Below are positions 1-53,188 of a stretch of 64,000 nt of DNA, one piece after another; positions within the stretch are counted from its first letter, which is position 1; each line of letters opens with the position of its first letter. Source of the DNA: Clostridium ljungdahlii DSM 13528 (lineage in GTDB: Bacteria; Bacillota; Clostridia; Clostridiales; Clostridiaceae); the NCBI RefSeq assembly GCF_000143685.1, contig NC_014328.1, forward strand, positions 3,224,001 to 3,288,000. Reading direction: 5' to 3'. The position numbers were made by a program, and so were the translations under genes. Under the pieces are notes generated by a model. The model made no database searches and was not told the DNA's origin. It saw nothing but the letters and a program-made list of their open reading frames with translations.

Positions 1-9
1 TACATCAAG

Positions 10-257
10 TGATTCTTAGGTTCAGGTGGAGTTTTCTTATAAGGAATACCTTTTCTGCATCTGAACCTTATTAACAGTATTCTTAGTGTCTTTAGCACTT
101 TAGAATACGTTATCCTTTAGGGGAAGAACTTATCCAGGCGCGTAGCAGTGCTTATCCCCCACTTTGAAGAAAAGCAGATATCCCAAATCTTTGATTTGGT
201 GATAGTCGCTTTCACAGAGTGCGATGGGGGTGTTAGCAATGGTAGCGATCGGATAAA
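10..257 (+). repeat. Structured intergenic repeat, copy A (long form)
   Basis: Member of a family found nine times in this window. The order is a 5' hairpin (GGTTCAGGTG pairing with CATCTGAACC), an extra module with the hairpin TTCTTAGTG/CACTTTAGAA, then TTATCC closing on a final GGATAA around a long inner hairpin. The inner hairpin is extended by a segment (about 165-220) that copy H also carries in the same place. Strand is given so that the element ends in GGATAA. Function unknown: a non-autonomous mobile element or a structured RNA are both possible. Confidence refers to family membership. Confidence 0.8.
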
Positions 258-260
258 ATA

Positions 261-306
261 AAAAAATAATATTGTGTAGAACTATCTACACAATATTATT
301 TTTTTA
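261..306. terminator. Strong bidirectional hairpin terminator
   Basis: A near-perfect stem of about 20 bp around TAATATTGTGTAGA and its complement, with a four-base loop, A-rich on the left and T-rich on the right. It lies just beyond the stop codon of the leftward receiver-domain gene and would end its transcript. Confidence 0.75.
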
Positions 307-320
307 TTGCCAGAAAAACA

Positions 321-1160
321 TTACTTTTCTTTATTTATTTTCATTTTCATTTTAATATTTAATTTATTCATTAAATAATTTTTATCTGTTCCATCATCAG
401 GAAAAATAACATAGCTGCATTTAAGATCATACTCACTATACTTTTCATTCATAATTTTTATTTTATTATAAACACATTCCATCTGATGAACAACTGAAAC
501 AACTTTTCTGTAATTACAGTCTGGAACTACACTTATAAACGTAGATAATCCGTATTTCTCAAATAAATCTGGTACCTTAAAAAGACTTCTCAACTTTTCA
601 TAAACCAAATCAAGTAAAATAAGATAACTGTCTTTTACTTCTATTTTCTCTTCTTGTTCTGTATAGTATTTTTTTACTAAGCTTACCATAATAATTGAAA
701 GCTTTTTATTTTGTGACCCACATTTCATGATTTGTCTGGCAATATACTCCTGAAAATTCAAGTATACTATTTCTTCTGGTCTATCTGAATTTCTACTAGA
801 TTTTATGAGTTTCATTATTCTTTTAACTAAATTTTTACTATTGAAAGGTTTTAATATATACTCTGAAGTACCTGCTTTTATGCCTTTTATAAATGCTTCT
901 CTAGAATTTAATTTTGTAAGTATCATTACAGGAATGTTTAATTTTTTAGCCTTTATCTTTTTAAGTACTTCAAATCCATCTTCAGTGCTTAATCCCACCT
1001 CAAGTATTATCAAATTTATTTCTTCTTTTTTATCATATAACCTATTAAAGAACTCAAAGGAATTTCCACATTCATATACCCCAATTCCAGCATCTTCTAA
1101 TACGCGTCTCACCCTATATCTTACATATATCATATCATCTAATATTATAACTTTGTTCAT
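321..1160 (-). CDS. Receiver-domain protein with Glu at the phospho-site and degenerate GGDEF-like domain
   Basis: Residues 1-120 form a CheY-like receiver domain. The acidic pair (D8, D9), the Thr in MILTK and the Lys in ILKPF are present, but the phospho-acceptor Asp is Glu (E54, in LIILEVGL). Residues about 130-270 look like a diguanylate cyclase fold in which the GGDEF signature has decayed: YGLSTFISVVPD stands where GGDEFAVVLPD is expected. It is therefore unlikely to make c-di-GMP. Glu may mimic the phosphorylated state, or phosphorylation may have been lost. Followed by a strong terminator; fabG and an MCP gene lie upstream on the same strand. Domain calls are by eye. Confidence 0.75.
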   Translation of the reverse strand: MNKVIILDDMIYVRYRVRRVLEDAGIGVYECGNSFEFFNRLYDKKEEINLIILEVGLSTEDGFEVLKKIKAKKLNIPVMILTKLNSREAFIKGIKAGTSEYILKPFNSKNLVKRIMKLIKSSRNSDRPEEIVYLNFQEYIARQIMKCGSQNKKLSIIMVSLVKKYYTEQEEKIEVKDSYLILLDLVYEKLRSLFKVPDLFEKYGLSTFISVVPDCNYRKVVSVVHQMECVYNKIKIMNEKYSEYDLKCSYVIFPDDGTDKNYLMNKLNIKMKMKINKEK

Positions 1161-1284
1161 AATTATTCATCCTATAACATCAATATTTTAACCATCCCTT
1201 TTATTAAAATTAATTTTTCCATATTCTATTTATCGTCCACTACTACTATTATTTTATATGTATATTACACTAAAGGTTCATTTC

Positions 1285-2028
1285 TCATATCATTCCACCA
1301 TCTACCGTTATTATCTGTCCTGTTATGTAGGCAGATGAATCACCTGCCAAAAAGCATACAGTTTTTGCTATATCTTTACATTGTCCAAATTTACCCATAG
1401 GTATATCTTCGATTAAACTTTTCTTCTCATCCTCTTTTAACCAGGAGTTCATTTCCGTATCAATTACCCCTGGTGCAACTGCATTTACCCTTATATTCGA
1501 AGGTGCCATTTCCTTTGCAATAGATTTTGTAAAAAGATTTATAGCTCCTTTAGATGCAGAATAAATGGATTCACAGGCAGCACCTACATTTCCCCACATA
1601 GAAGAAATATTTATTATAGATCCTGATTTTTTAGAAATCATATGTTTTAATACAGAGTGAGAACAGTTAAGTACACCCTTTAAATTCACATCTATAATAG
1701 AATTCCACTCATCTTCTTTCATATCTACAAAAAGTCCTATTTTAGAAATTCCTGCATTATTAACAAGTATATCTATTTTCCCCATTTTACTTAATGCATA
1801 TTGCACTATTCTTTCAGCATTACTATATAAACTAACATCCCCCTGTACTACCATTCCTACCGAACCGGCTTGTTTTATCATATCCAAGGTTTTATAGGCT
1901 TCTTTCTCATCTTTTTTATAATTTATTACTACATTTGCACCACATTTTGCTAAATTTATAGCAATACTTCTTCCTATTCCTCTAGAAGCTCCTGTTACTA
2001 TTGCTACTTTTCCGCCTAAATTTTCCAT
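1285..2028 (-). CDS. fabG: Short-chain dehydrogenase, 3-oxoacyl-ACP reductase type
   Basis: A classical SDR of 247 residues, the usual FabG length. It has the NAD(P)-binding TGASRGIG at residues 12-19, NNAG at 90-93, and the catalytic Ser142/143, Tyr156 and Lys160 in ISSMWG...YSASK. It ends in the common SDR C-terminus ITGQIITVDGG. The likely reaction is NADPH-dependent reduction of a 3-oxoacyl thioester or a similar ketone. No other fatty-acid genes are nearby, so this may be a paralogue with a different substrate rather than the housekeeping FabG. It starts about 50 bases after the MCP gene on the same strand. Confidence 0.8.
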   Translation of the reverse strand: MENLGGKVAIVTGASRGIGRSIAINLAKCGANVVINYKKDEKEAYKTLDMIKQAGSVGMVVQGDVSLYSNAERIVQYALSKMGKIDILVNNAGISKIGLFVDMKEDEWNSIIDVNLKGVLNCSHSVLKHMISKKSGSIINISSMWGNVGAACESIYSASKGAINLFTKSIAKEMAPSNIRVNAVAPGVIDTEMNSWLKEDEKKSLIEDIPMGKFGQCKDIAKTVCFLAGDSSAYITGQIITVDGGMI

Positions 2029-2078
2029 AATGATTTTATCCTTCCTACATTAACATAAAATTTACTTTTCAATTAATA

Positions 2079-4145
2079 TTATACATTAAATTTACTTAAA
2101 ATGTGAAGAAGCTCCTCAGACCCACTTGCATTTCTCATAGTATACAAAGATATGTCCCTATTTTCATTTGCTATTTCATCTATATTATCTGATATATCTA
2201 CGGATGCTTTAGTTCCATCATTTGATGACTCCACTATAATACACATTATTTTAGTTATTACTAAAAAAGACTCATCTATATTTTCCATAAGCCCACAAAC
2301 CTTTTTTAATACAGATTCAAATCTCATTCCATCCTCTTCATAATCTTTGCTTATGTCCACCATTTTTCTGTAATCCGACAAAATATTTTTCTCTAAAATT
2401 TTCAATACACTTTCAGCTGATTTGGAGAGTTTTTCTACCGATTTTAAAGCACTTTTTACATTTAATTGTATATTACTTACCATATCAGAAGATTGCATAG
2501 CTAATTTTCTTACCTCTTCTGCCACCACCATAAATCCCCTGCCATATTCGCCAGCCCTTGCGGCTTCTATATTGGCATTTAATGCTAATATATTTGTTCT
2601 ATCTGATATAGTTTTTATTTCTTCAGCCATTATAGAAATATTTTTTACTACTTTCACATTTTCCAGTGCATGTCTTAATTCATTACTATACTGTGTATAA
2701 TAATTTTCAAAGTCATGCTTTGAGCTTTCCGTATCTTTTTTAATATTTAAAGCCCTTTCCCTTATGTTTTTTGCAAGAGCCAAGCCTTGATTTGCCTCTT
2801 TTGCTGAGTTTTTTATTTCATGCTTTATATTTGATATCTTTTGGTTCACTTCTTCTATAGAAGATAAGTTCTCCTGCATATTAGAACATATTTGTGAAGA
2901 TTCATCTGAAACCAACTTTATTTCCGAATGCGATTTTTCAAACATTTTATTTACATTATCCGCAGCTTCCAAAGCTTCTCCGCTTTTTAGTTTTACTTGT
3001 TCTATAATATACTTTATTTCATTCATTGCATAATTTAATGCTGAAGCCGTATCTCCAAATTCATCTCTTTTGTCAATTTGTATTCTGTAGTTTAAATTAA
3101 ACTTTGATAATTCCAGGGCATACTTTCTTATTTTATGAAGTGGTTTTTTTATAGTTCCAGCTATAAATAACCCTATAAAGAATCCTATCAAAATAAATAG
3201 AACAGTTATCATAATTATTTTGTATTTTAACATATTTACTTCACTAAATATTTCACTCTTATCTATAGTAAGCCCCAGCGACCAATTTAAGTCAGCTATT
3301 GGTGCATAGGCCATAAACATATCTTCATTATCTTTTTTATAGTATCCCGAGCCACTTTTACCCATTATCATATTTTTTTCTAAAATTGACAGTTCACTTA
3401 AAGAATGATCTTTTTTTTCATCTTCTATAGTATTATCTTTATTTAGCACCAGTTTCAAATCCTTATGTGCTACCTTAACCCCTTCCTTATTTATTATAAA
3501 ACAGTATCCGCTTTTACCCAGTTTTTCATTTTGAACTAATTTATTTAAACTTTCCATACTTACATTTGAAAATAATACTCCTACAACTTTTTCATAAGAA
3601 TCTTTTATTGGAACTGCCACCGCCATTATCTGCTGCCCATCCGTATTCATCACTGGATCTGAAATAGACATTTTCCCACTTAACGCATTTTTAAGGTAGT
3701 AATTCTTGGTGTCCTCTAAATTAGCTTTAGTCTTTTCACCAGTTTGCATATAAATCATACCACTTGAATCCATCACATTTAAGTTCACATATCCTAATTG
3801 TTTTGCTCTCATCTTAAGAAGAGGTGTCTGTATTGAAGTATTCATGGATTTTATAATATCATTTGATGCTAACTCTTCAATTGCTTTAACATCCTGTTTT
3901 AAAGTTGCATCTATGAGTTTAGAAGACTCTATTGCTCTACTTTCAAGCGAAAATTTTATACTATCTTCCATAGCTCTATAAGCACTGTAATAAGATGTTA
4001 TTCCTAATATACTGCATATGAATATTATAAGTATTCCAATCTCACAAACTATTTTCACTCCCACACTGTTTAAAAAAGATAGATTAAACTTTTTCTTCTT
4101 ACCAAAAAATAACTTTGAGGCACTTAAAAATAATTTTTTTAACAT
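2079..4145 (-). CDS. Methyl-accepting chemotaxis protein (Cache-HAMP-MCP)
   Basis: A transmembrane chemoreceptor of 688 residues. It has a first membrane helix at about 32-54, an extracellular double-Cache-like sensor at about 55-305, a second membrane helix at about 308-332, HAMP to about 385, and a cytoplasmic signalling coiled coil. The signalling tip matches the family ([15 protein letters not shown], then [13 protein letters not shown]). It should bind a small ligand outside the cell and signal to CheA/CheW; the ligand is not predictable. Start supported by GGAGG eight bases before ATG. The neighbouring fabG may be cotranscribed. Confidence 0.9.
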
Positions 4146-4294
4146 AAAATTCCTCCAGTATATAAATTTACATTAATCATATCTTTTATTTTAATGTGGT
4201 ATTTTTAAGCTGTTGTTAAATAGAACTTTTTTTAACGTAAATTTAACCTATGATAACCAACATGGATATTCCAATGAAATTTACAATAATATAT

Positions 4295-4323
4295 TTGAAT
4301 TGGCTTTTTTAATATGATATAAT
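4295..4323 (+). promoter_or_regulatory. Sigma-A-type promoter of the glycine riboswitch transcript
   Basis: TTGAAT at 4295-4300, a 17-base spacer and TATAAT at 4318-4323, ending about 15 bases before the structured leader. Confidence 0.65.
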
Positions 4324-4338
4324 TGTGATAATTTAAAA

Positions 4339-4464
4339 GGGTCGGATGAAAATAATGGGATTAAATTTTTAAACCGTTATTAGACGAACCTCTGGAGAGA
4401 CTCTTATGAGCACCGAAGGGGAAAGCCAAAGTTGGGTGAAACTCTCAGGTACAAGGGACAGAGG
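4339..4464 (+). promoter_or_regulatory. Glycine riboswitch, single aptamer with upstream ghost-aptamer stem
   Basis: The aptamer core is clear: P1 CCTCTG (4389-4394) pairs with CAGAGG (4459-4464), and GGAGAGACTC, GCACCGAAGG and AACTCTCAGG match the gcvT RNA consensus. Upstream, AATAATGG and CCGTTATT form an 8-bp stem closed by GGGTC/GAACC. This looks like the ghost aptamer of a singlet glycine riboswitch. A terminator follows at 4529, so control is probably transcriptional and glycine-activated (inferred from the class, not shown). Confidence 0.85.
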
Positions 4465-4528
4465 ATTTTATACAAAATGATAATTATTGACTTAATTAAT
4501 AGTTATTGTTTAAAATCTTATTTTCCAG

Positions 4529-4557
4529 AGACTAATTTAATTTGGTCTTTTTTTTTA
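4529..4557 (+). terminator. Riboswitch expression-platform terminator
   Basis: AGACTAA and TTGGTCT form a 7-bp stem followed by nine T. It lies between the glycine aptamer and the ACT-domain gene, where ligand-dependent antitermination would act. Confidence 0.75.
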
Positions 4558-4614
4558 TAATTGCTAATAATAGAATTAATCAATACAAACTATTTAAAGG
4601 AGATGGATTATAAA

Positions 4615-4884
4615 ATGAAGTCATTTATAACTGTACTTGGAGAAGACAAAACTGGTATTATTTACAAGGTAACTTCTGTACTATTTGAAAATAACATAAA
4701 TATTTTGGACATAAACCAAACTCTCATAGAAGGCTATTTTACAATGGTAATGCTAGTTGATTTATCAAAAATGAAAACAGATTTTATAGAACTAAAAAAT
4801 CACCTTGAAAACAAAGCTAAAGAAATAGGAGTTGTCATTAAGCTTCAACGAGAAGACATATTCACTTCTATGCACCAAATTTAA
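4615..4884 (+). CDS. ACT domain protein, UPF0237 family
   Basis: 89 residues, the normal size for UPF0237. It is a single ACT fold (SFITVLGEDKTGIIYKVTS) of the kind that binds amino acids as a dimer. The ATG at 4615 is chosen over an upstream TTG at 4561 because AAAGGAG lies at 4596-4602 and the family starts at this Met. It precedes the UPF0210 gene by 18 bases, and this pair is conserved in many Firmicutes. A glycine riboswitch upstream suggests a glycine-linked role; the biochemical function of the family is not known to me. Confidence 0.85.
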   Translation: MKSFITVLGEDKTGIIYKVTSVLFENNINILDINQTLIEGYFTMVMLVDLSKMKTDFIELKNHLENKAKEIGVVIKLQREDIFTSMHQI

Positions 4885-4902
4885 ACTAAGGAGTTGAGTT
4901 AA

Positions 4903-6261
4903 ATGATAAATACTAAAGACATTATGGAAACCATAAACATGATTGACAAAGAAAACCTAGACATAAGAACCATAACTATGGGTGTCTCTCTTTTAGATTG
5001 TATAGATAGTGATGGAAAAAAAGCAAGAACTAAAATTTACGATAAAATAACTAAACAAGCTGAAAACCTAGTAAAAACTGCCAATGAGATTGAAACGGAA
5101 TATGGTATACCCATAATACATAAAAGAGTATCCGTTACACCTATTTCACTGATAGCCCAGGCAAGCTCTGATAAAAGTTATGTAGAATATGCCAAAATTT
5201 TAGATAAAGCTACCCAAACTTTAGGTATTGACTTTATTGGGGGTTTTTCAGCACTTGTACATAAAGGTTATACTAAAGGTGACAAAATACTTATAGAGTC
5301 CATTCCAGAATCTCTAGCTGTTACTGAAAAAGTCTGCTCCTCTGTAAATGTAGGAACTACAAAAGCAGGAATAAACATGGATGCAGTAAAAGATATGGGA
5401 AGAATAGTAAAGGAAACTGCCTATCTCACTAGAGAAAATGAGAGTATAGGTTGTGCAAAGTTAGTAATATTTTCAAACGCAGTAGAAGATAATCCTTTCA
5501 TGGCAGGAGCATTTCATGGAGTTGGAGAAGCTGATTCCATAATAAACGTAGGTGTTAGTGGTCCTGGCGTTGTAAAATGTGCTCTAGAAGAAGTTAAGGG
5601 GCAAAATTTCAATGTAGTTGCAGAAACAATAAAAAAGACAGCTTTTAAAATAACAAGAATGGGTCAATTAGTTGCTGGAGAAGCTTCAAAAAGATTAAGT
5701 GTTCCTTTTGGTATAGTAGATTTATCACTTGCACCTACACCTGCTGTAGGAGACAGTGTTGCAAGAGTTCTGGAAGAGATGGGCCTTGAAAGTTGTGGGT
5801 GCCCAGGTACTACTGCTGCTCTAGCATTATTAAATGATGCAGTCAAAAAAGGAGGCATAATGGCAGCATCTCAAGTTGGTGGATTAAGTGGTGCGTTTAT
5901 ACCTGTAAGTGAGGATGAGGGTATGATAAGTGCAGTAAATTCAGGGTCTCTTAATCTTGAAAAATTGGAAGCAATGACTTGTGTATGTTCTGTAGGTCTT
6001 GACATGATAGGTATACCTGGTGATACTCCTGAATCCACTATATCTGCCATAATAGCAGATGAATCTGCTATTGGAATGATTAATAATAAAACAACTGCCG
6101 TGAGGGTAATCCCTGTTTACGGGAAAAATGTCGGAGATGAAGCAAATTTTGGAGGACTTCTCGGAAAAGCACCTATAATGCCTGTAAGTAAATTTTCAAG
6201 TGAAAGTTTCATAGCTAGAGGTGGAAGAATTCCTGCTCCAATTCACAGCTTTAAGAATTAG
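4903..6261 (+). CDS. UPF0210 / PFL family protein (DUF711)
   Basis: 452 residues, full length for UPF0210. It opens with the family's typical N-terminus ([21 protein letters not shown]) and carries long Gly-rich stretches ([36 protein letters not shown]). The fold is related to pyruvate-formate-lyase-like barrels, but it lacks a glycyl-radical motif. SD AAGGAG lies before the ATG. It is cotranscribed with the ACT-domain gene behind the glycine riboswitch, so the two probably act together in glycine-responsive metabolism (inference). Confidence 0.88.
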
Positions 6262-6433
6262 ATTTTCCACTTAAAAGCCCCATATATTTTTAATGTTGAA
6301 TGCAAATTTAAATATAGGTATAAATAAAATTTAATTTTATTGTAAACATGTTTAGAAATACAATAATACTACGATAACATATACATAGTTACTATATATT
6401 GCTATTCTAATGATTTATATGAGGTGAGATAGT

Positions 6434-7492
6434 ATGTTGTCAAAAAAGAAATTAGTTCGAATAAGCGAATTAGAACCAGGAATGATATCAGCAAGTGATA
6501 TAACCTTTGAAAATAAAATGCTGTTAGCTAAAGATATTGCCATTACGGAATCGGCTATAGAAAAGCTAAAACAAAATATTATTGTGGACGAAGTAGAAAT
6601 TTACGTAGAAGATACTTCCGAGGATCCTTTAACTGCTAAAATAGAAACGGTACAAGAACTTGAGAATACTTTTAATGAATTTTCTTACAACTTGGAAAAT
6701 ATATTTGATACCATATCTAATTTAAAAGCTCCTGAAATAAAGGAAGTACGAACTTTTTCAGAAAAAATACAAGAAGAGTTTAACTCTACAGGCCTAGTTA
6801 TTAAAAATATAGTATTCCACGGAAGTGGCAATGATACCATTTACAGACACAGCGTAAACGTAGCAGCTGTAAGTTTTATACTTGGAAAATGGTTGGGGTT
6901 TAGCAAAAGGGATATAAATTTATTAACTTACTCAGCAGTACTACATGATTTTGGAAAAATCAAGATAAGTAAGGATGTTATAAATAAAGAGGGAAATCTC
7001 ACCCCAGAAGAATATAAAATTTTTAAAACTCATCCTGCCATAGGTTATAATTTTGTAAAAGAGATCCCCTATTTAGATTCTTCCGTAAGTTATGGTGTAT
7101 TAATGCATCATGAGAGAATGGATGGGTCTGGGTATCCATTAGGTATTAAAGAAGATAAAATTCATAAATTTGCTAGAGTAATAGCTATTGCAGATTTGTT
7201 TGATGATTTAAGCTCCAATAGATATTGTAAAGAACTAAGCGGTCCTTTTGAAGCTTTAGAAATTATTCAACAGCAAAGCCTTGGGAAACTCGATTGCCAA
7301 TATTGTACTATGTTTTTAAATCACATAGTAAACTACTATATGGGTGAAAATGTACTTTTAAATAATGAGCAATGTTGTAAAGTCATCCAAGTTGACATGA
7401 ATGATTTGAGAAATCCTCTTTTACTTGATGACAATGGATTCCTTGATTTAAAAAAAGAAAAAGATTTATATGTTAAAAAGCTGGTTATTTAA
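6434..7492 (+). CDS. HD-GYP domain c-di-GMP phosphodiesterase
   Basis: 352 residues. The HD-GYP domain covers about 125-300, with the metal motif LHDFGK and the signature HHERMDGSGYP, both intact. This predicts hydrolysis of cyclic di-GMP to pGpG or GMP. The N-terminal 110 residues (LVRISELEPGMISASDI) resemble the small domain that often precedes HD-GYP in Clostridia. No membrane segment, so cytoplasmic. GAGGTGAG precedes the ATG. The stop codon lies within a terminator hairpin, so it is probably monocistronic. Confidence 0.88.
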   Translation: MLSKKKLVRISELEPGMISASDITFENKMLLAKDIAITESAIEKLKQNIIVDEVEIYVEDTSEDPLTAKIETVQELENTFNEFSYNLENIFDTISNLKAPEIKEVRTFSEKIQEEFNSTGLVIKNIVFHGSGNDTIYRHSVNVAAVSFILGKWLGFSKRDINLLTYSAVLHDFGKIKISKDVINKEGNLTPEEYKIFKTHPAIGYNFVKEIPYLDSSVSYGVLMHHERMDGSGYPLGIKEDKIHKFARVIAIADLFDDLSSNRYCKELSGPFEALEIIQQQSLGKLDCQYCTMFLNHIVNYYMGENVLLNNEQCCKVIQVDMNDLRNPLLLDDNGFLDLKKEKDLYVKKLVI

Positions 7493-8727: not shown

Positions 8728-8739
8728 TTATGAATTGGT

Positions 8740-9506: not shown

Positions 9507-9638
9507 GTCCGATGACTACCTGCTCTAATACTCCCACTTCTCCAAGTGGTAGTAAAGAGCAGCTACGTCCCTGGATAACGATTTCTAAGCATCAGGTGGA
9601 GTCAAAAAACTCCATCTGATGCCAAGAACTCTGTTTAT
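9507..9638 (-). repeat. Structured intergenic repeat, copy B (short form)
   Basis: Read on the minus strand it begins ATAAACAGAGTTCTTGG, forms the hairpin CATCAGATGGAGT/ACTCCACCTGATG, then TTATCCAGGGACGTAGC, an inner hairpin (GCTCTTTACTACCACTT pairing with AGTGGGAGTATTAGAGC) and AGGTAGTCATCGGA. Its first bases overlap the stop codon of the membrane protein gene at 9638, so it forms that gene's 3' end in sense orientation. Confidence 0.85.
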
Positions 9639-10438: not shown

Positions 10439-10463
10439 AATTGTCTCCACTTTCTATATTATT

Positions 10464-18005: not shown

Positions 18006-18134
18006 ATCAATGAATCTTACTTAGTGGGAGTTTGTTTCTCCCACTAAGTTTAGATGAATTATCTAGGGGCGTATCTACTGTTATCTTCCGCTTTGATAGA
18101 AGTGGAAGTGTTACAGTAGGTAGCCATCAGATAA
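18006..18134 (+). repeat. Structured intergenic repeat, copy C (second subfamily)
   Basis: Begins ATCAATGAATCTTA six bases after the nifJ stop codon, forms the perfect hairpin CTTAGTGGGAG/CTCCCACTAAG, then TTATCT, a long inner hairpin (CTACTGTTATCTTCC with GGAAGTGTTACAGTAG), and GGTAGCCATCAGATAA. Its closing helix is TTATCT/AGATAA where the first subfamily has TTATCC/GGATAA, a compensatory change. Nearly identical to copy F at 38.5 kb. Confidence 0.85.
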
Positions 18135-24230: not shown

Positions 24231-24367
24231 TTTATCCGATGACTATCTACTCTTAATATTCGCCTTTCTCTAAGTGAAAGTATTAAGAGTAGTTACATCC
24301 CTGGATAACGATCTCTAAGCATTATGTGGAATCAAAACTCCATCTGATGCCAAGAATTCTGTTTATA
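24231..24367 (-). repeat. Structured intergenic repeat, copy D (short form)
   Basis: Same layout as copy B on the minus strand, but the inner hairpin is CTACTCTTAATACTTTC with an A/T-rich complement ending ATTAAGAGTAG. The helix is kept although many bases differ from copies B, G and I. Lies between the hot-dog protein gene and the nitroreductase gene. Confidence 0.85.
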
Positions 24368-24918: not shown

Positions 24919-24966
24919 TTTATTCCCACCTTATAAATACTTTATACAATATATCTAAGCTATTTT

Positions 24967-25151
24967 TCATCCGATGGCTAGCTACCAGCCGTAATACCCT
25001 TCTTATAAAGTGGGGAATAACGGCTGCTACGACTCTGGATAAAGATTTCCCCTAAAGGATAACGTCTTCTAAGTGCTAAAGCACTAAGAATCCTGTTAAT
25101 AAGTTTCAGATGGAGAAAAAACTCTACCTGAAACCAAGAACTCTGTTTATA
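24967..25151 (-). repeat. Structured intergenic repeat, copy E (long form)
   Basis: On the minus strand: ATAAACAGAGTTCTTGG, hairpin TTTCAGGTAGAG/CTCCATCTGAAA, the extra module with TTCTTAGTGC/GCACTTAGAA found also in A and H, then TTATCC, an inner hairpin starting CAGCCGTTATTCCCC and ending GGTATTACGGCTG, and CATCGGATGAA. Lies between the TetR and hot-dog genes. Confidence 0.85.
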
Positions 25152-38464: not shown

Positions 38465-38593
38465 ATCAATGAATCTTACTTAGTGGGAGTTTGTTTCTCC
38501 CACTAAGTTTAGATGAATTATCTAGGGGCGTAGCTACTGTTAGCTCCCACTTTGATAAAAGTGGGAGTGTTACAGTAGGTAGCCATCAGATAA
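38465..38593 (+). repeat. Structured intergenic repeat, copy F (second subfamily)
   Basis: Nearly identical to copy C at 18.0 kb: ATCAATGAATCTTA, hairpin CTTAGTGGGAG/CTCCCACTAAG, TTATCT, inner hairpin CTACTGTTAGCTCCCAC/GTGGGAGTGTTACAGTAG, and CATCAGATAA. Where copy F has CTCCCAC/GTGGGAG, copy C has CTTCCGC/GTGGAAG, a paired change in one stem. It lies within the presumed ArsR-thioredoxin-permease operon, antisense to it. Confidence 0.88.
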
Positions 38594-38684
38594 CTTTATA
38601 ATTAAATACTTATATTCTCTTTTAAAATATTGGACTTTAATCCTATTAAAATAGGGTCAAGTCCCGTTTTAACATAGTTTATTT

Positions 38685-45758: not shown

Positions 45759-45781
45759 GCTATCATATACTGAGAAAAGAT

Positions 45782-45807
45782 AAACCGAGAGTCAAAACTC
45801 CCGGTTT
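45782..45807 (+). terminator. Terminator of the two-component/polyferredoxin operon
   Basis: AAACCGAGAGT and ACTCCCGGTTT pair with one mismatch around CAAA, followed by ATTGATTTTT. Confidence 0.7.
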
Positions 45808-46003
45808 ATTGATTTTTCGTTTCTAATTCTTTAATTATCAGGTCATCAACATATTCATCACAATTTTTGCAATAATATTTTATCTCTATTTCTTTTCCAC
45901 ACTTCTCATGACATACTGTTCTTTTGCAACTTTTTAAATATTTATTTGCCCATATAATAATCGAATTAAACACATGCTTAAAGTCTCTTCCCTTTTCTGT
46001 CAC
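45806..46003 (-). pseudogene. HxlR-family regulator, 5'-truncated remnant
   Basis: Only the C-terminal 65 codons remain (TEKGRDFKHVFNSIIIWANKY, then a Cys-rich tail with CHEKCGK and CKNCDEY), matching the end of HxlR winged-helix regulators, which normally have 100-120 residues. The frame begins right where a fragment of the structured repeat family ends, with no SD and no HTH. The HTH part has been lost at the repeat junction, so the fragment is probably non-functional. Confidence 0.7.
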
Positions 46004-46041
46004 CCTACTGTAACGCTCCCTCTAAGTAAGATTCATTGATA
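46004..46041 (-). repeat. Collapsed remnant of the structured repeat (second subfamily)
   Basis: CCTACTGTAACGCTCCC matches the 3' arm of copies C and F in inverse orientation, and it runs straight into CTAAGTAAGATTCATTGAT, the inverse of their 5' end. The middle of the element is missing, as if deleted between the two CTCCC stretches. It abuts the truncated HxlR gene. Confidence 0.75.
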
Positions 46042-46079
46042 ATAAAAAAAGATGTAAATTTAGAAATCTACATCTTTTT

Positions 46080-46211
46080 TTATCCGATGACTACCTGCTC
46101 TAATACTCACACTTTTCCAAGTGGGAGTAAAGAGCCGCTAAGTCCCTGGATAACGATTTCTAAGCATCAGGTGGAGTCAAAACTCCATCTGATGCCAAGA
46201 ACTCTGTTTAT
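46080..46211 (-). repeat. Structured intergenic repeat, copy G (short form)
   Basis: On the minus strand it begins ATAAACAGAGTTCTTGG directly after the stop codon of the M24 peptidase gene, with hairpin CATCAGATGGAGT/ACTCCACCTGATG, TTATCCAGGGAC, the inner hairpin GGCTCTTTACTCCCACTT/AAGTGTGAGTATTAGAGC and CATCGGATAA. Very close to copy B. Confidence 0.88.
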
Positions 46212-47287
46212 TACTCAACCACTATAATATCTTTGCTGTATTTATTTAAAACTTCACAGCCATCTTCCGTAACAAGTACTAAATCCTCTATTCTAACTCC
46301 TATCTCACCTGGTATGTAGATACCCGGTTCAATTGAAAATATCATACCAGGTTGTACCTTATCGCTATTTGCAGAAGAAACATCACCTAAATCATGACAT
46401 TCTATTCCTATAGAGTGCCCCGTTCTATGTGTAAAGTACTTACCATAACCTTTCCCATCTATATAATCTCTTGCAGCTTTATCTATATCGCAAAATCTTA
46501 CCCCAGGTTTAACTGCTTCAATTCCCCTTTTATTAGCTTCTAAAACTATATTATATACATTCTTACTATTTTCAGGAACATATTTATAAAATACAGTTCT
46601 CGTCATGTCAGAACAATAGGAATCTTTAACACATCCAATGTCTATAGTTACAGCTTCTCCTTCTTTAAGTATAGAATTATCTGTCTCATGATGAGGGTCA
46701 GCTGCATTTATTCCATAAGCCACAATAGGATCAAAAGAAAAACCTTCTGCTCCTAAACTTTCATATATATTTTCTAAAGCTTTTCCCATCTTCTTTTCCG
46801 TATAACCTTCAGGAATCAGTTTTATTAACTTGTCTATAGCCTCATCATTAAGCCTGGATGCTTCTCTCATTAAACTTCTTTCATCATTATCTTTACACAT
46901 TCTTATTCTATCAATTATTTCAGAACCATTTACAAAATTGCTGCTAGCTTTCAATTCCATTAATCTCAAAAGAAATCTGGCCGGCCAATTCTTGTCTATA
47001 CCTATAGGTGAATTTTTGTCCGTATATTTTGAGATTATTTCCACAGCATCATCTGTATCCTTATACCAAATTTTCTCTACCCCTATATCTTCTTCTAAAG
47101 TAAATAACTCATTTATAAACAGCTTCTTATCCCCATTTATATTTAAATAAAGTACAAGTAATCTTTCCCCTGGATGTATCCACTTTCCAGTTAAATAAAA
47201 TATGGATGCTGGATCTGATACAATAAGCTGCGGTACATTTTGAGATTTCATTTTTCCCAATACTTTGTTTAGTCTATTTACTTTCAT
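46211..47287 (-). CDS. Xaa-Pro aminopeptidase / M24 family peptidase
   Basis: 358 residues. The N-terminal creatinase-like domain covers about 1-125, and the pita-bread domain holds the metal ligands (VTIDIGCVKDSYCSDMTRT, RTGHSIGIECHD, SIEPGIYIPGEIGVRIEDL). It removes N-terminal residues before proline using two metal ions. The stop codon touches repeat copy G. GGGGATG precedes the ATG. Confidence 0.9.
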   Translation of the reverse strand: MKVNRLNKVLGKMKSQNVPQLIVSDPASIFYLTGKWIHPGERLLVLYLNINGDKKLFINELFTLEEDIGVEKIWYKDTDDAVEIISKYTDKNSPIGIDKNWPARFLLRLMELKASSNFVNGSEIIDRIRMCKDNDERSLMREASRLNDEAIDKLIKLIPEGYTEKKMGKALENIYESLGAEGFSFDPIVAYGINAADPHHETDNSILKEGEAVTIDIGCVKDSYCSDMTRTVFYKYVPENSKNVYNIVLEANKRGIEAVKPGVRFCDIDKAARDYIDGKGYGKYFTHRTGHSIGIECHDLGDVSSANSDKVQPGMIFSIEPGIYIPGEIGVRIEDLVLVTEDGCEVLNKYSKDIIVVE

Positions 47288-47379
47288 GTCAATTTCATCC
47301 CCTATATTTTTAATTATAATTATATGTCCTATATAATTATAGATTTCTTTTATTCTAAAAACAACAAAAATACATCTAT

Positions 47380-47958
47380 TTAACTATACTGTACTATATT
47401 TGAATTAACTATTATTTTAGCTATTTCATTATGAATCTCTTTTGACACATGTATTCCATCATCTAAGAAATGTTCTTTCATTTTCCCATTTTCAGCTAAA
47501 ATAGTTCCTACATCTATAACTTCAATATTTTTCTTTTTGCCATATTCAACTAACAGTTCCCGCAATTTGCCTAAATAGTCATTAACCTCTTTATAATCCC
47601 TATCTTTAAACCATGTCTTTTCTACAATATCATCTTTAACCGGCAGTGGTGTTAAAATTATAGGAACAAATTTATTTTTTTCACATATCTCAACCATCAT
47701 ATCTATGTTTTTTAAAATATCATTAATACTTGTCTTTAAAAATACATCATTTGTTCCCCCCATAATTAGAACTTTCGATGGTTTAAACTCAACAACATCT
47801 TTTTCAAATCTTTCTTTCATTTCGCCTGTTGTATTACCTGGTATACCTTTATTAATAATGTTTTCTTTTATTTCCTTAGATAACACACTAACCCAACTCT
47901 CTGTTTTACGAACTCTAAAACCAAAAGTTATGCTGTCTCCAATACATACAATACTCAT
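47380..47958 (-). CDS. SGNH/GDSL hydrolase
   Basis: 192 residues. Block I is VCIGDSITFGF, the Gly block KGIPGNT, block III GGTNDVF and the final DDGIHVS (Asp-x-x-His). Probably a cytoplasmic esterase or lysophospholipase of the TesA type; no signal peptide. It lies 18 bases after trmB on the same strand. Confidence 0.88.
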   Translation of the reverse strand: MSIVCIGDSITFGFRVRKTESWVSVLSKEIKENIINKGIPGNTTGEMKERFEKDVVEFKPSKVLIMGGTNDVFLKTSINDILKNIDMMVEICEKNKFVPIILTPLPVKDDIVEKTWFKDRDYKEVNDYLGKLRELLVEYGKKKNIEVIDVGTILAENGKMKEHFLDDGIHVSKEIHNEIAKIIVNSNIVQYS

Positions 47959-47976
47959 TTTATTTTCCCCTTCCTC

Positions 47977-48612
47977 TTACAACATTTTTGCTATTAAAAA
48001 CATAGTTTTCATTCCAAGGGAAGTGAATTTTTCCTCATATTCTGTAACTACATTTTCAGCAAAATCACTACTGTGAAGATCATAAGTAAGGTACTTTATC
48101 TCAAAATCATTTTCCTTGAAATATTCCTGAGATTCTTCAAAAAGTTCCCTGTCATCTGTTTTAAACCATATTTCACTACCTAGTTTTAAAAACTTTCTAT
48201 ACCTGTTTAGAAATACAGTATGGGTAAGTCTTCTTTTCTTTTGTCTTCTCTTAGGCCATGGATTACAAAAATTTATATATATCCTGCTTATCTCGTCTTT
48301 ATCAAAAACTTCCTCAATTTGAGCTATGTTCATAGGCATTATCCTGGCATTTGTAACCTCAGCTTCTTGAAGCTTTTTAAGTGCATATATTAAAACTTCA
48401 TCTTTTAAATCAATACCTATATAATTTATATTAGTATTGTTTAACGCCTGAGTATACAAGAATTTTCCCCTTCCGCAGCCTAACTCCAAATATATATCAT
48501 TCTGATTTTTAAACTCTTCTTTCCATTTTCCCTTATACTTTTGTGGTTCTGTTATAGTTAAAGAACTAGCCTCCATTTCAGGTCTAGCCCACCATTTTTT
48601 TCTAAGTCTCAT
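47977..48612 (-). CDS. trmB: tRNA (guanine-N7-)-methyltransferase
   Basis: 211 residues, full length. Characteristic sequences are [12 protein letters not shown] at the start, [10 protein letters not shown] for SAM binding, [18 protein letters not shown] for tRNA/catalysis, and [13 protein letters not shown]. It methylates G46 in the variable loop of tRNA. Confidence 0.95.
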
Positions 48613-48779
48613 ATTCTAAATTCCTTTCCAAATTTTTAATCACAAAATAAATTATCTATTTAAATTACAAAACTGTCAATGCTATTATATAAATATTGTT
48701 TTCTATACATTATTAAAGTTTTTTCTACAATATACGATAATAATAAGTAAAATATTATACTATTCAGGTTGTGAAAATT

Positions 48780-49928
48780 ATGGATTACTTTATAGAAGAA
48801 CTAAAAAACAAAAAGATAATTAACACTGATGATATAAAAACAATGCAAGAATACATTAATAAAAAATATTTTAAGATTCCATCCAGCGAAAAGGCAAAAA
48901 TGCTTTCCAACACCATACACCATATTTTAGATACAAATCTAAAGGAACTACCAGAAAATTATAGACAAACTGTAAAAATAAACACTTTAAAAAATACCTT
49001 TTCTAAAAATAAAGCCTCAATTTTCATGTATGATATATTTCTCTGCTGTATTAAAATCGAACCTTTAAAGAAAAATTTTACAAAAGAAATTACCCGCTGG
49101 ATAAATGCAAATATAGAAAGTTCAGTTGAAGAAAAAGATTTAAACAACTATTTAGGGATAACAAATCCAAAAATGAATCCTGTTACAGATGAAAACCTAA
49201 ACAACAAAATAACTGAGCCTGTTAGCCCCAATAGAACTATTGAAACTACAGCTGCTCCAGCTATACCTTTCAAGTTAAAATTTAATAAAAAACTTTTAAT
49301 ATTTTCCTCAATTATATTTTTTGTTTTAATTTCTCAGGTATTAGGACAAGTTTTTTTTCAAAAAAGCCTATTTAAAATTCCTTTTTATATAGCCAGTACT
49401 TCTGAAAGTGGGAATAGCTATTTAAAAGATCTGGTTGACCAAGTAACTCTAAAAAATGCTAAAAAGAATTTTCCGAATGTATATCTTCCTGAATATTTAA
49501 AATATCAAACAATAGATGAAGATAAATTGAAATCCTACTTAAGCAGCCGCAATTCGCTCCTAGGCAAAGATCCATATTTTTCTACTATAATGAGTACTGC
49601 AAGAGAGTTTAATTTAAATCCAATTTTATTATTTGCTATAACAGGACAAGAACAGGACTTCGTACCTGTAAATACTCCAAGTGCCTCTAAAATAGCTAAC
49701 AACCCTTTTAACGTATATCACAGTTGGCAGGAATATAATACTGATATAAAAGATTCTTCAAGAATAGCTGCACGAACTATTATAAATCTATCGGAAAACA
49801 TGCCAAAGGAAAACAACCCTTTTATGTGGATAGGCAAAGAATATGCAGAAGATTCAAATTGGGGAAATGGAGTCCAAGCCATATTTGAAGAAATAAACAA
49901 TTACTTTGCACTTCACAGCAAAAAATAA
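48780..49928 (+). CDS. Membrane-anchored glucosaminidase-like protein
   Basis: About 382 residues. The N-terminal 115 resemble DUF1836-like helices (helical, cytosolic), followed by a linker, one membrane helix (LLIFSSIIFFVLISQVLG) and an outer C-terminal domain. That domain (LLFAITGQEQDFVPVN, ANNPFNVYHSWQEY) has the look of a glucosaminidase/lysozyme-like domain with Glu near the start. It may trim peptidoglycan or be a sensory relative of such enzymes. GTG at 48771 is an alternative start; neither has a strong SD. Confidence 0.6.
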   Translation: MDYFIEELKNKKIINTDDIKTMQEYINKKYFKIPSSEKAKMLSNTIHHILDTNLKELPENYRQTVKINTLKNTFSKNKASIFMYDIFLCCIKIEPLKKNFTKEITRWINANIESSVEEKDLNNYLGITNPKMNPVTDENLNNKITEPVSPNRTIETTAAPAIPFKLKFNKKLLIFSSIIFFVLISQVLGQVFFQKSLFKIPFYIASTSESGNSYLKDLVDQVTLKNAKKNFPNVYLPEYLKYQTIDEDKLKSYLSSRNSLLGKDPYFSTIMSTAREFNLNPILLFAITGQEQDFVPVNTPSASKIANNPFNVYHSWQEYNTDIKDSSRIAARTIINLSENMPKENNPFMWIGKEYAEDSNWGNGVQAIFEEINNYFALHSKK

Positions 49929-49930
49929 TA

Positions 49931-49968
49931 GGAAGATTGTAAATAAAAAACAATTTTACAATCTTCCT
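49931..49968 (+). terminator. Terminator
   Basis: GGAAGATTGTAAA and TTTTACAATCTTCC form a 13-bp stem with a loop of about 10 bases just after the stop codon. Confidence 0.75.
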
Positions 49969-49971
49969 CTG

Positions 49972-50208
49972 TTTATCCGATGACTACTCGCTATAATACT
50001 CCCACGCACACAGCGAAAGCGACTATCACCAAATCAAAGATTTGGGATATCTGCTTTTCTTCAAGTTGGAGTAAAGAACGACTATGTCCCTGGATAACGA
50101 TTTTCTCCTAAAGGATAACGCCTTCTAAGTGCTGAAGCACTAAGAATCCTGTTAATAAGCATCAGGTGGAGTTAAAACTCCATCTGATGCCAAGAACTCT
50201 GTTTATCT
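49972..50208 (-). repeat. Structured intergenic repeat, copy H (long form with extended inner hairpin)
   Basis: On the minus strand it begins ATAAACAGAGTTCTTGG overlapping the TAA stop of the M50 protease gene. It has the extra TTCTTAGTGCTTCAGCAC module of copies A and E and the extended inner hairpin of copy A (TTGAAGAAAAGCAGATATCCC and beyond). The sequence ATAAACAGAG is present at both ends, so a target duplication is possible. Confidence 0.88.
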
Positions 50209-50847
50209 GATTATACTATTGGCAATGGCCATAAGTTTAGAGTATATGGCCATTGACGGAATACCTACTACATAGTTTGCAATTGGTGTAGCTACAAATA
50301 TAAGAAGTATAATAAGCTGATACCTATATAAAGTATCTGATATATTATAGTAAAAGGAAGGAAACAAATCCCTTAGTATATGAAATCCATCTAATCCAGG
50401 TATAGGTATTAAATTGAACACAAACAACATACAATTTATATTTACTACATACAATACAATTTTAACTACTATATTTGAAACTAAATTATAATTACTAGAT
50501 GAAAAGATAAATTTATATAAAAACACTGTCAAGAGTGCAGCTAAAAATGCTGTTATTAAATTAGCCAAAGGACCTGCCGCAGAAACTTTTAAATCATCTT
50601 TATTTCTATTTTTAAAGGCATTTGGATTGATCTCAACAGGCTTTGCCCATCCAAACCCTACAAGTAATATCATTATAAAACCTATAATATCTATATGTGC
50701 AAATGGATTTAAAGTAAGTCTTCCTTGAAATTTAGCTGTTTTATCTCCTAATCTATCTGCCACAAAGGCGTGAGCAAATTCATGGAATGTAAGCCCTATA
50801 AGTATTCCTGGTATAATAAGTATCTTATCCAATATCATTTCATTCAA
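50203..50847 (-). CDS. Site-2 protease family (M50) zinc metalloprotease
   Basis: 214 residues, five or six membrane helices. The zinc site HEFAH is at H22-H26, with the third ligand in LIPIPGLDGFH. It is of the small rhomboid-like YwhC/YdgP type, which cleaves within membranes; substrate unknown. The start appears to be TTG at 50847 with GAGGGG upstream. The stop codon lies in repeat copy H. Probably cotranscribed with the beta-propeller protein gene. Confidence 0.88.
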   Translation of the reverse strand: MNEMILDKILIIPGILIGLTFHEFAHAFVADRLGDKTAKFQGRLTLNPFAHIDIIGFIMILLVGFGWAKPVEINPNAFKNRNKDDLKVSAAGPLANLITAFLAALLTVFLYKFIFSSSNYNLVSNIVVKIVLYVVNINCMLFVFNLIPIPGLDGFHILRDLFPSFYYNISDTLYRYQLIILLIFVATPIANYVVGIPSMAIYSKLMAIANSIIR

Positions 50848-50869
50848 ATAATTTCATCCCCTCATTTTA

Positions 50870-51895
50870 CTAATTTAACGTTACTTTTTGTAACTTTCCA
50901 TCATTTATCGATGCAATTCCGCCTTCATATATTTGTACAAAATTTCCTTTATATACATACTGCTTTCCACTTGTAATTTCCGTAACAATTCCTTTTAAAT
51001 TGTCATTTATATATATTTTGCCCGATGGCATGACAAACACGTCATCCTTATTCACAGATTGGCCCAAATTTATGTTTTGATAATTACTTCCGCTGTCATT
51101 TATAGTTCCACAGTAGATATTTGATATTTTATTGTCCTTTTCATCACCTATGTATATTTTATCATTTTCATCTACTCCTACCCAAACAGGATTTTCTACC
51201 CCATTTATCATAAGTGACCTATCATCACCTGTAACATATATCTTACCATATACTTTATCTTCATATATAAGTTTATCATCTAAAGATAATATTCCCATAT
51301 TACCTACCATATAAGATCTTGTAGTTACTTTTTGTATTTCATTCATTATATCAATTCTATATATATTTGTCCTTTCCCCACTGCTTTCCATCTTAACGTA
51401 TATAACATTGGTATAAGGAGATTCTTCTATATCATCAATTTTAGCTTTTTCATATGTCGAATCCAATGATTTTATGTTTTCTTTTATATCTTTACCAGCT
51501 TCATAATATGATAATTCAAATTTTGAACCGTCATCAGAACTTTCTTTTTCTGCTATAAGTATTCTATCCCTATCGTTTTGCCATTTATAAAAAGATACCT
51601 TGACTCCATCCCTAAATTCTATATTTTTTTCATTTCCATTCTTTGTATCCACCACTTTCAAAACATTTGATTCACAATATGCCAGATACCTACCATCAAA
51701 GGAAACACTAATATTATTAGCATCTTCTGGTACCTTTATAACAACATCTGCTTTTTTTGGCTCGCTCTTTACAATTTTTTTTGTTTTTATCTCTGTTTGA
51801 GAGGATAAAAAATAATTATTTATATAAAACAATCCTGCAAACTGTACTACAAGAGATATAATTATCCAAATAGTAATTTTCTTAAAAATTTTCAT
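50870..51895 (-). CDS. Membrane-anchored beta-propeller-like protein
   Basis: 341 residues. An N-terminal membrane helix (IWIIISLVVQFAGLFYI) is followed by an extracytoplasmic region with repeated blade-like strands (ISVSFDGRYLAYCESNVLKVVD, KVSFYKWQNDRDRILIAE). It looks like a six- to seven-bladed WD40/TolB-like propeller, with no catalytic motif. Transcribed with the phosphodiester glycosidase gene upstream (35 bases) and the M50 gene downstream (22 bases). Envelope-associated, function unknown. Confidence 0.6.
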   Translation of the reverse strand: MKIFKKITIWIIISLVVQFAGLFYINNYFLSSQTEIKTKKIVKSEPKKADVVIKVPEDANNISVSFDGRYLAYCESNVLKVVDTKNGNEKNIEFRDGVKVSFYKWQNDRDRILIAEKESSDDGSKFELSYYEAGKDIKENIKSLDSTYEKAKIDDIEESPYTNVIYVKMESSGERTNIYRIDIMNEIQKVTTRSYMVGNMGILSLDDKLIYEDKVYGKIYVTGDDRSLMINGVENPVWVGVDENDKIYIGDEKDNKISNIYCGTINDSGSNYQNINLGQSVNKDDVFVMPSGKIYINDNLKGIVTEITSGKQYVYKGNFVQIYEGGIASINDGKLQKVTLN

Positions 51896-51930
51896 TCGTT
51901 ACTCCCCTTTAATAATTATCTTATAACCTT

Positions 51931-52941
51931 CTATGGTTTTACGTAAATAGCTGATGGCACTGATCTCTCACCTAAGGGATCACAAGTGTTGTTTATTACA
52001 TCTCCCTCATAGTACATAGTTGAAGAAGACCCTCCATCTAAATTTGTAGCATTTACTGCGCCATATTGAAGCATTATATTTTGAACATCCTTCAAGGAAG
52101 CACCAATACTTTTAGCTTGTCGTCCGTCTATAACTAGCAATAAAATAGCACCATCTGACCTTTGTCCTATCGCAGTTCTAGGAGCTATTCCCCAGCCACC
52201 ATCACCGGATATCATTCCTTCTCCACCCACTACTAAGGCAGGCTCAAAAGATATGGCTTCTGTAACATTTCTCTCTTTCAGTTCATTTAAGCTGTGATGT
52301 CCTACTATAAGCTCTCCTTTATTTGTAAGTGCCATTACACTTTTTGATTTATCATCAGGATCAGTTATATCATTAGCAACAATCTGGCCATCACTCATAA
52401 GTATACCTGTAGGTTTCCCTCCTGTACCCGTCCACTTATTGTCACTATCACTAGAAGAACTGTCTGTAAAAGCTCCTCCATTTATAGCAGCTACAGCATT
52501 ATGATCTTTTGCTATTTGACTTGTAAGTTCTCCAGCTACCCCTAATTTTTTACTGTATCCTACTTTAACTCTAGTAGGATCGTGTATTATAAGCATATAA
52601 CCTTTAAATTTTCTTCCATCACTTATTTCTTCTCTTTCTATACTACTATCATGCTTATTTTCAAATTTTAAAGGTGAATTATCTTTTTCTATATTTTTAG
52701 GTTTGTCTTCACTTAGTATTTTTTGTATTTCACTATCTGATAAAAATATTTTTGCTATGTACTGATGACTTAAAGTAGTCATGGCTGCGCCTACTACTGT
52801 TTTCTTTACATTTTCAAAAGGACCGTAAAATACTAAAAATGGAGCAGTCATTCCAGTAAATATAAACTCAAATAATATGAAATACAGTATGAGTTTCCAA
52901 ACTGGCCGTTTCTTTTTGCCTTCAATTTTCCCCTTCTTCAT
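51931..52941 (-). CDS. Phosphodiester glycosidase (NAGPA/DUF2233) family protein
   Basis: 336 residues. The start is ATG at 52941 after GGAAAGG; the in-frame start 51 bases upstream has no binding site. A membrane helix (LILYFILFEFIFTGMTAPFLVFYG) precedes the NAGPA domain with AINGGAFTD, GIAPRTAIGQ, LLVIDGRQAKS and the final NLDGGSSSTMYYEG. The family removes GlcNAc from phosphodiester linkages, and in bacteria acts on wall polymers or exopolysaccharide. First gene of a three-gene envelope run. Confidence 0.85.
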   Translation of the reverse strand: MKKGKIEGKKKRPVWKLILYFILFEFIFTGMTAPFLVFYGPFENVKKTVVGAAMTTLSHQYIAKIFLSDSEIQKILSEDKPKNIEKDNSPLKFENKHDSSIEREEISDGRKFKGYMLIIHDPTRVKVGYSKKLGVAGELTSQIAKDHNAVAAINGGAFTDSSSSDSDNKWTGTGGKPTGILMSDGQIVANDITDPDDKSKSVMALTNKGELIVGHHSLNELKERNVTEAISFEPALVVGGEGMISGDGGWGIAPRTAIGQRSDGAILLLVIDGRQAKSIGASLKDVQNIMLQYGAVNATNLDGGSSSTMYYEGDVINNTCDPLGERSVPSAIYVKP

Positions 52942-53050
52942 ACGTTGAAACCTTTCCTTTCTAAAAAAAATACATCCTTCAACATTGTACAATAAATGAT
53001 AAAATTTTTAAATAGAAATAATTATGAACATACTAAAAACTTTATATAAT

Positions 53051-53188
53051 ATAAACAGATTTCTAAGCATCAGATGGAGTTTTAAACTCCATTTGATGCT
53101 TAGAAATCGTTATCCAGGGACATAGCATAGCCGCTCTTTATCCCCACTTGGAGAAGTGGAAGTATTAGAGCGGGTAGTCATCGGATAA
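53051..53188 (+). repeat. Structured intergenic repeat, copy I (short form)
   Basis: ATAAACAGATTTCTAAGCATCAGATGGAG pairs back over 20 bp with CTCCATTTGATGCTTAGAAA, the most perfect 5' hairpin of the family. Then TTATCCAGGGACATAGC, the inner hairpin CCGCTCTTTATCCCCACTT/AAGTGGAAGTATTAGAGCGG, and CATCGGATAA. Antisense to the flanking leftward genes. Confidence 0.88.

Follow-up and report, generated by a model that had tools for sequence, protein, structure and literature searches.

Among described insertion sequences (ISs), IS608 inserts 3′ of a fixed tetranucleotide that is kept in its left flank and read by guide pairing (PMC5934647), and IS200/IS605 elements in general produce no target duplication (PMC7290912). 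Insertions of group A IStrons lie after TTGAT, ATTAT or TTTAT (PMC4227781), and repetitive extragenic palindromes (REPs) measure 20–40 nt (PMC3733652). Here we analyse a family of folded repeats in a 64,000-nt stretch of the Clostridium ljungdahlii DSM 13528 genome (NC_014328.1, positions 3,224,001–3,288,000; hereafter the window). The family is very probably a transposon without genes that moves as single-strand DNA according to IS200/IS605 logic and resembles the palindrome-associated transposable elements (PATEs).

An initial annotation, made from the window's letters alone, had listed nine repeats sharing a 5′ hairpin, the string TTATCC or TTATCT, a long inner hairpin and a tail that pairs back, and had offered two explanations, the first an RNA and the second a hairpin of single-strand DNA that an IS200/IS605-type transposase uses. 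All nine repeats are present and form one family. The layout needed revision: the minus strand carries five copies (9507, 24231, 24967, 46080 and 49972) and the plus strand the other four of the nine, and there are three types of left end, not two. Type 1, ATAAACAG, is carried by six window copies, type 2, ATCAATG, by those at 18006 and 38465, and type 3, ATCAAGTG, by the copy at 4. On the strand in which the annotation had written the repeat (the described strand), the order is left end, 5′ hairpin, guide, long inner hairpin and GG or AG, followed by ATAAA. The guide core, TTATCC or TTATCT, is preceded by one or two distinct bases. Elements are about 110–230 nt long and contain no open reading frames (ORFs), and inspection revealed no terminal inverted repeats. 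The proposed helix between TTATCC and GGATAA is real, with the correction that its last four bases, ATAA, belong to the host target and not to the element. Of the two explanations offered, it is the second that agrees with the empty sites, the lack of duplication, the fixed pentanucleotide on one side, the subterminal hairpins and the covariation between guide and ends.

Empty sites define the ends and the target

The genomes G004 and G005 (Clostridium ragsdalei P11, C. ljungdahlii ERI-2) served as close relatives, and the queried flanks match them at mostly 92–100% identity, with one at 88%. Using left flanks, we tested 16 copies, ten of which have a clean empty site in G004, G005 or both (L002, L007, L008, L009, L011, L104, L107, L118, L125 and L140). 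At each of these the two flanks are joined through one pentamer, ATAAA in nine cases and ACAAA in the tenth (L011), with no target duplication. Another three of the 16 sites were found only filled or internally deleted: L019 (by coordinates), L093 and L181 (G004 only).

Three of the clean sites reveal which pentamer belongs to the host. In L011, the right pentamer is ACAAA in the filled and the empty site alike; ATCAA opens the element in both L125, of type 3, and L140, of type 2, and the empty site reads ATAAA. The right pentamer is therefore host sequence and the left pentamer is part of the element, so that, seen from the complementary strand, insertion has taken place exactly 3′ of TTTAT, and the last bases of the element itself are TTTAT or TTGAT. 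Some copies stand in tandem and share one ATAAA (L005, L025 and L060), an arrangement that fits insertion at the end of another copy; others lie about 130 nt apart (L394, L398 and L408).

Both hairpins covary

The covarying helices described in the initial annotation were borne out. In an alignment of 33 copies, 95.2% of cells pair, and double changes occur in 21 of 49 pairs, compared with 5.8 in column shuffles. We then aligned 109 sequences from many genomes, selected by a length of 112–152 and by ATxAA and ATAA-like ends, a choice that conditions columns 1, 2, 4 and 5. Placed on a tree, 29 of the 49 pairs show at least one double compensatory event. Compensatory events number 73 in all, whereas random column pairs average 3.3 (at most 12 in 200 draws) and slid partners give 3–7, and seven of the ten top-ranking column pairs, out of 8,256, fall within the structure (0.06 expected). 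A stricter null, our own substitution-shuffling with 30 simulated alignments, tempers this claim: under it, E ≤ 0.05 is reached by only two of the 8,256 column pairs, each of them inside the structure; drawing the structure from the consensus of the same data also makes the comparison mildly circular.

Folding z-scores range from −5.0 to −12.2 as RNA (six copies) and from −7.1 to −9.9 as DNA of the opposite strand (three copies). There is a hairpin near each end of the element, and both hairpins covary and fold as DNA of this opposite strand, which would be the active strand in transposition.

One central guide fits both ends

The guide reads GTTATCC, ATTATCT or ACTTATCC on the described strand, corresponding to GGATAAC, AGATAAT or GGATAAGT on the putative active strand. 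The base before TTAT in the guide (position 58) is complementary to the sixth base of the left end (position 6) in 107 of 109 sequences (CG 80, GC 16, TA 9, GT 1, TG 1), a count that we prefer to a broader one of 162 of 174, which includes opposite-strand shadow matches. This pair ranks eighth among the 8,256 column pairs and is the first outside the nested structure. One parsimony reconstruction gives it four double events, with C-G becoming T-A in two and G-C in the other two. At the right junction, the last guide base and the base before the target (positions 64 and 127) show three double events. Since both pairs covary, one central guide fits both ends, and the two pairings would both form during movement.

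These observations suggest the following route. On the putative active strand, the element lies directly 3′ of a pre-existing TTTAT and begins with CCGATGACTACC; its end is TTTAT in type 1 and TTGAT in types 2 and 3. A trans-acting transposase, presumably of the Y1 type, would bind both subterminal hairpins and make two cuts, one behind TTTAT and one behind the terminal TTxAT. The donor flanks would be joined precisely, and a single-strand circle with the junction GGATAAACAG would be inserted after another TTTAT. The central guide would pair with the target and left junction and with the terminal end.

Such a transposon would explain a repeat family found in 88 of 225 genomes of the order, gas-fermenting clostridia included, and, because guide and end changed jointly in separate lineages, evolution would have provided a natural test of target choice by a guide. 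A further question is what enzyme could mobilise an IS200/IS605-like element in genomes in which a Y1 transposase is not detected. A bolder version, which we regard as possible and rather doubtful, is that the family has a new layout of end recognition, in which a single guide is used for the target and for both ends and has co-evolved with the left end to new pairings about four times, the mover is not a recognisable Y1 enzyme, and the loop modules Y and Z described below are a second tier of mobile hairpins entering loops. If the layout with one guide for two ends is true, the family would be a minimal, gene-free substrate for studies of programmable single-strand insertion.

Copy number and spread

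A covariance-model search of the host genome and the Clostridia, suggested in the initial annotation as a check, uncovered a large family. With a model from 33 copies, the host genome (one contig, 4,630,065 bases) has at least 146 matches at E ≤ 0.001. Removing five overlapping shadows leaves at least 141, and merging three more as split matches leaves at least 138 separate places. Copies are under-counted, because scoring covered the best 150 of 2,985 candidates and the search overlooked one of the nine window copies; the weakest matches (E up to 6e-4) may be fragments.

Across the order, the 88 genomes with model matches represent 25 of 56 genera, with at most the 15 best candidates scored per genome. 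Within the genus, where the best 150 candidates were scored for each genome and shadows are included, the counts are 0, 0, 1, 1, 12, 23, 30, 33, 66, 87, 125, 146 and 150. The many equal-scoring copies in two genomes (G196 and G197) suggest recent amplification. An exact 20-mer of the element occurs in at least 117 genome-contig stretches; among the matches listed are Clostridium carboxidivorans, C. simiarum, C. sulfidigenes, Haloimpatiens lingqiaonensis, Hathewaya massiliensis and two metagenome bins labelled Acholeplasmataceae and Anaerocolumna. One copy used as a blastn query had no match in phage and plasmid collections, and viral contigs gave no exact 19-mer matches. Comparison with Rfam returned no family for the repeats at gathering threshold. 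Short strings of the element occur in 352 full-text papers, and the matches listed look like chance primer strings; the full-text literature searched, which leaves most subscription journals outside its scope, contained no description of the family.

The search for a transposase

The initial annotation had noted that the window holds no transposase. For Y1_Tnp (PF01797) this extends to the whole host genome, and the domain is also unmatched in three further genomes (G003, G007 and G177). Two of these three are rich in copies of the repeat, G003 with 66 model matches and G177 with at least 15. Together with the following observations, this absence weighs against an IS200/IS605-like transposon. 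Among 487 loci, partly redundant and mostly 2–8 kb long, type-1 end motifs form 299 left/right pairs at up to 300 nt and none at 300–4,000 nt. A bias towards the lagging-strand template is absent (62 of 138 places, p = 0.27, assuming an origin near coordinate 0, with which the window's negative GC skew agrees), and this counts against the simplest IS608-like picture. By inspection, a single guide lies between the two hairpins, whereas IS608 has a guide for each hairpin; the family thus lacks individual guides at the 5′ bases of its hairpins as well as the strand preference. The correlation between positions 3 and 57 (A with C in 80 sequences, C with A in 22) is a non-standard pair that largely tracks subfamilies and may reflect subfamily history only. 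Finally, three of the 16 tested sites are ambiguous (L095, L160 and L163), and at L118 the site is empty in G004 and occupied by unrelated sequence in G005.

PF01797 is present in 10 of 13 genomes of the genus and in eight of nine high-copy genomes of other genera. At 60 of 97 Y1 loci (30 of 54 and 30 of 43) and at 22 of 22 TnpB loci, no model match or pair of end motifs brackets the gene, and the copies near L269, L340, L359, L360 and L367 look like chance neighbours of transposase genes. Two multi-copy ISs with mapped ends (in G010 and G009) have ends that differ from those of the repeats. With no Y1 match in the host and no matching ends at these loci, the transposase would be lost, elsewhere or not of a recognised kind.

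Two other loci came to light in this search. The only match to PF07282 (TnpB/Cas12f-like) in the host genome, L354 (48,233–48,448), lies in an ORF of 506 amino acids, and the stretch just downstream may, judged by eye, be a guide RNA scaffold. In G005 and G004 (L276 and L277), Y1 genes resembling those of REP-associated tyrosine transposases (RAYTs) are flanked, by inspection, by a different palindrome family, GTGCCTGTCAC.

Alternative explanations

The RNA proposed in the initial annotation, which could be a 3′-untranslated-region element or a small RNA under selection that spreads by duplication or an unrelated mechanism, was considered first. It would account for the strong covarying structure and the RNA folding z-scores, and it gains something from the neighbouring genes, taken from ORFs only: among 114 copies with both ends recognised, the upstream neighbour ends towards the element in 64 and starts away from it in 48. 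This orientation bias is mild, however, and gene orientation is mixed overall. A selected sense-strand RNA is expected to favour G-U much more clearly over A-C. Non-Watson–Crick cells at pairs with a Watson–Crick consensus do show somewhat more G-U than A-C in two fitted alignments (104:80 and 126:81), but the ratio is 38:33 in an unfitted one. The precise joints that separate presence from absence in close relatives also argue against an RNA gene, as does the lack of an Rfam match. The empty sites and the G-U/A-C balance thus disfavour a structured RNA, which we consider quite improbable, and the evidence points to mobile DNA over a conserved RNA gene.

Other forms of mobile DNA were also considered. 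The least improbable, though still unlikely, is that the repeats are ordinary decayed ends of a still-existing IS200/IS605 element or IStron, given that TTTAT and TTGAT are documented group A IStron targets and that many carriers have Y1 transposases and TnpB genes; yet none of the 60 Y1 loci covered, out of 97, and none of the 22 TnpB loci is bracketed by repeat ends, nearby copies look chance-like, and the two mapped multi-copy ISs have other ends. Movement by RAYTs, as for REPs, is very improbable. GTAG-like bases do occur on both sides of the inner hairpin, and a copy lies near each of two RAYT-like genes (L269 in G006 and L340 in G196), but two copies near 60 transposase loci do not exceed our own estimate from copy density. 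The host genome also lacks PF01797, the RAYT-like genes of G004 and G005 are flanked by the other palindrome, and a length of about 110–230 nt with a fixed pentamer target is unlike REPs. A conventional double-strand miniature inverted-repeat transposable element, suggested by small size, lack of coding sequence, high copy number and palindromes, was rejected: such elements have terminal inverted repeats and target duplications, and here inspection found no such repeats and the ten clean empty sites no duplication. We regard it as extremely improbable.

The single-strand DNA transposon is thus the reading that we retain. Absence of duplication, a fixed target that is retained, a hairpin for each end and absence of terminal inverted repeats are all found, as in the IS200/IS605 mechanism, and pairing of the guide with both cleavage sites is represented by covariation at 6 × 58 and 64 × 127. 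Unlike an IS200/IS605 IS, the elements encode no Y1 TnpA, being about 110–230 nt long in a genome with no PF01797 match. They share with PATEs the lack of a transposase and the near-terminal palindromes, and, like PATEs, they have no terminal inverted repeats and do not duplicate the target. We do not assign the family to a named IS because its parent was not found, its guide layout differs and no strand bias was seen.

Left ends, loop modules and neighbouring genes

Both ends were recognised in 114 of 130 copies, after 100 of 111 further matches had been fetched. Left ends are of type 1 in 83, type 2 in 21 and type 3 in 10, although two of the ten type 3 rows (L109 and L170) are starts of module X misread as left ends. 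In 108 of the 114, the base next to the GATAA-like end is A.

Hairpin loops are the site of exchangeable modules. Module Y, a hairpin of about 51 nt found in 34 of the 114 copies, occupies the inner hairpin's loop or, alternatively in type 2, that of the 5′ hairpin; module Z, in two copies, is a hairpin-loop module like Y. Module X, in 19 copies, is a shortened duplicate of part of the 5′ domain. Module content can differ between species at one site, with X absent from L104 in the window genome and present in G005. Module Y (for example, window positions 172–222) ends in one of three swappable small hairpins, GCTGTGTGC, ACAGAGTGC or CTCTTTAGAG, the last of which was seen where Y occupies the type 2 5′ hairpin. 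In G005, two orthologous copies (L253 and L245) carry internal deletions like the core deletions of PATEs; L253 is a type 2 copy that collapsed between two GTGGGAG repeats and retained both ends.

Relative to neighbouring genes, 43 of the 114 copies are sense/sense, 30 anti/anti, 20 convergent, 16 divergent and 5 incomplete. The TAA of the element ends the upstream frame in 9 of 83 type 1 copies compared with 0 of 31 others, which is not significant (p = 0.11). Copies in G009, G012 and G008 (L040, L046 and L052) lie at what appears by eye to be a type I restriction locus; that of L040 sits between genes recognised by eye as hsdS-like and hsdM-like.

The window copies are given in Table 1. Their ends were set by inspection, and the ATAAA-like pentamer after each was taken as host target.

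Table 1. Repeat copies and adjoining pentamers, in window coordinates
Feature	Position	Strand	Description
Copy A	4–252	+	Type 3, ATCAAGTG; modules X (~71–126) and Y (~172–222); R1 match 70–256
Copy A pentamer ATAAA	253–257	+	Target call by analogy with empty sites
Copy B	9509–9638	−	Type 1, without modules; 150.1 bits
Copy B target pentamer ACAAA	9504–9508	−	ACAAA also at the G004 empty site (site L011)
Copy C	18006–18130	+	Type 2, ATCAATG left end, AG before target; 89.3 bits
Copy C target pentamer ATAAA	18131–18135	+	
Copy D	24236–24366	−	Type 1, inner hairpin diverged; 111.7 bits
Copy D target pentamer ATAAA	24231–24235	−	
Copy E	24971–25150	−	Type 1, module X (~25047–25099); 45.5 bits
Copy E right-flank pentamer ATGAA (variant)	24966–24970	−	
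Copy F	38465–38589	+	Type 2; 94.7 bits
Copy F right-flank pentamer ATAAC (variant)	38590–38594	+	
Degenerate tenth copy, following copy G	~45998–46041	−	Type 2 left end, internal deletion, right end lost; by inspection
Copy G	46084–46211	−	Type 1; 154.1 bits; empty in G004 and G005 (site L008)
Copy G left end			Overlaps stop codon of upstream gene (46211–47287)
Copy G target pentamer ATAAA	46079–46083	−	Empty site L008
Copy H	49977–50206	−	Type 1, modules X (~50105–50157) and Y (~50006–50057); 60.8 bits
Copy H target pentamer ATAAA	49972–49976	−	
Copy I	53051–53184	+	Type 1, 5′ hairpin near-perfect; 128.8 bits
Copy I target pentamer ATAAA	53185–53189	+	

Elsewhere in the window, the only Rfam match at gathering threshold is a glycine riboswitch, and there is no group I intron. 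The riboswitch (RF00504, 61 bits, positions 4382–4471, plus strand) consists of one aptamer upstream of an open frame at 4903–6261. A further open frame at 63609–64000 (plus strand), which we take to resemble a gamma-type small acid-soluble spore protein, contains two in-frame direct repeats of 168 nt that are 93% identical.

Comparison with known systems

Among the closest known systems are the PATEs of Haloquadratum walsbyi and a PATE-like element of Halanaerobium (PMC3119063, PMC7290912), which are likewise gene-less, with near-terminal palindromes, a fixed short target and presence or absence between close strains. The small repeats SMR-A insert inside PATE palindromes, as module Y does in the hairpin loops of the Clostridia family, so nesting into palindromes, seen in haloarchaea and here, may be general. 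Whereas the Haloquadratum PATEs resemble IS605-type elements, no parent was found for the Clostridia family, which also differs in having one guide that covaries with both ends and in its spread over 25 of 56 genera in one order.

With IS608 and ISDra2 (PMC5934647), the family shares insertion 3′ of a fixed oligonucleotide that is kept on the left, a hairpin for each end and pairing between guide and cleavage site. Unlike them, it has no tnpA or tnpB, a single shared guide between the hairpins, where IS608 carries its own guide at the 5′ base of each, and no visible replication strand bias. Group A IStrons such as CdISt1 (PMC4227781) also inhabit Clostridia and insert at TTGAT, ATTAT or TTTAT, but they end in TCAG, and the repeats contain neither the group I intron of an IStron, according to Rfam, nor ORFs. 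REPs and RAYTs (PMC8266576) have in common with the family single-strand hairpins, GTAG-like bases and a guide-based choice of cleavage site; the family is longer, has defined ends and a defined target, and, unlike REPs, has no linked RAYT in the host genome. The BOX elements of Streptococcus pneumoniae (PMC3049150) are similar in that they are small, fold, occur in many copies and are built from modules, of which the inner ones vary. In the Clostridia family, modules Y and Z sit in hairpin loops and X duplicates part of the 5′ domain, and, in a further difference from BOX, empty sites resolve a target and ends that point to IS200/IS605 logic.

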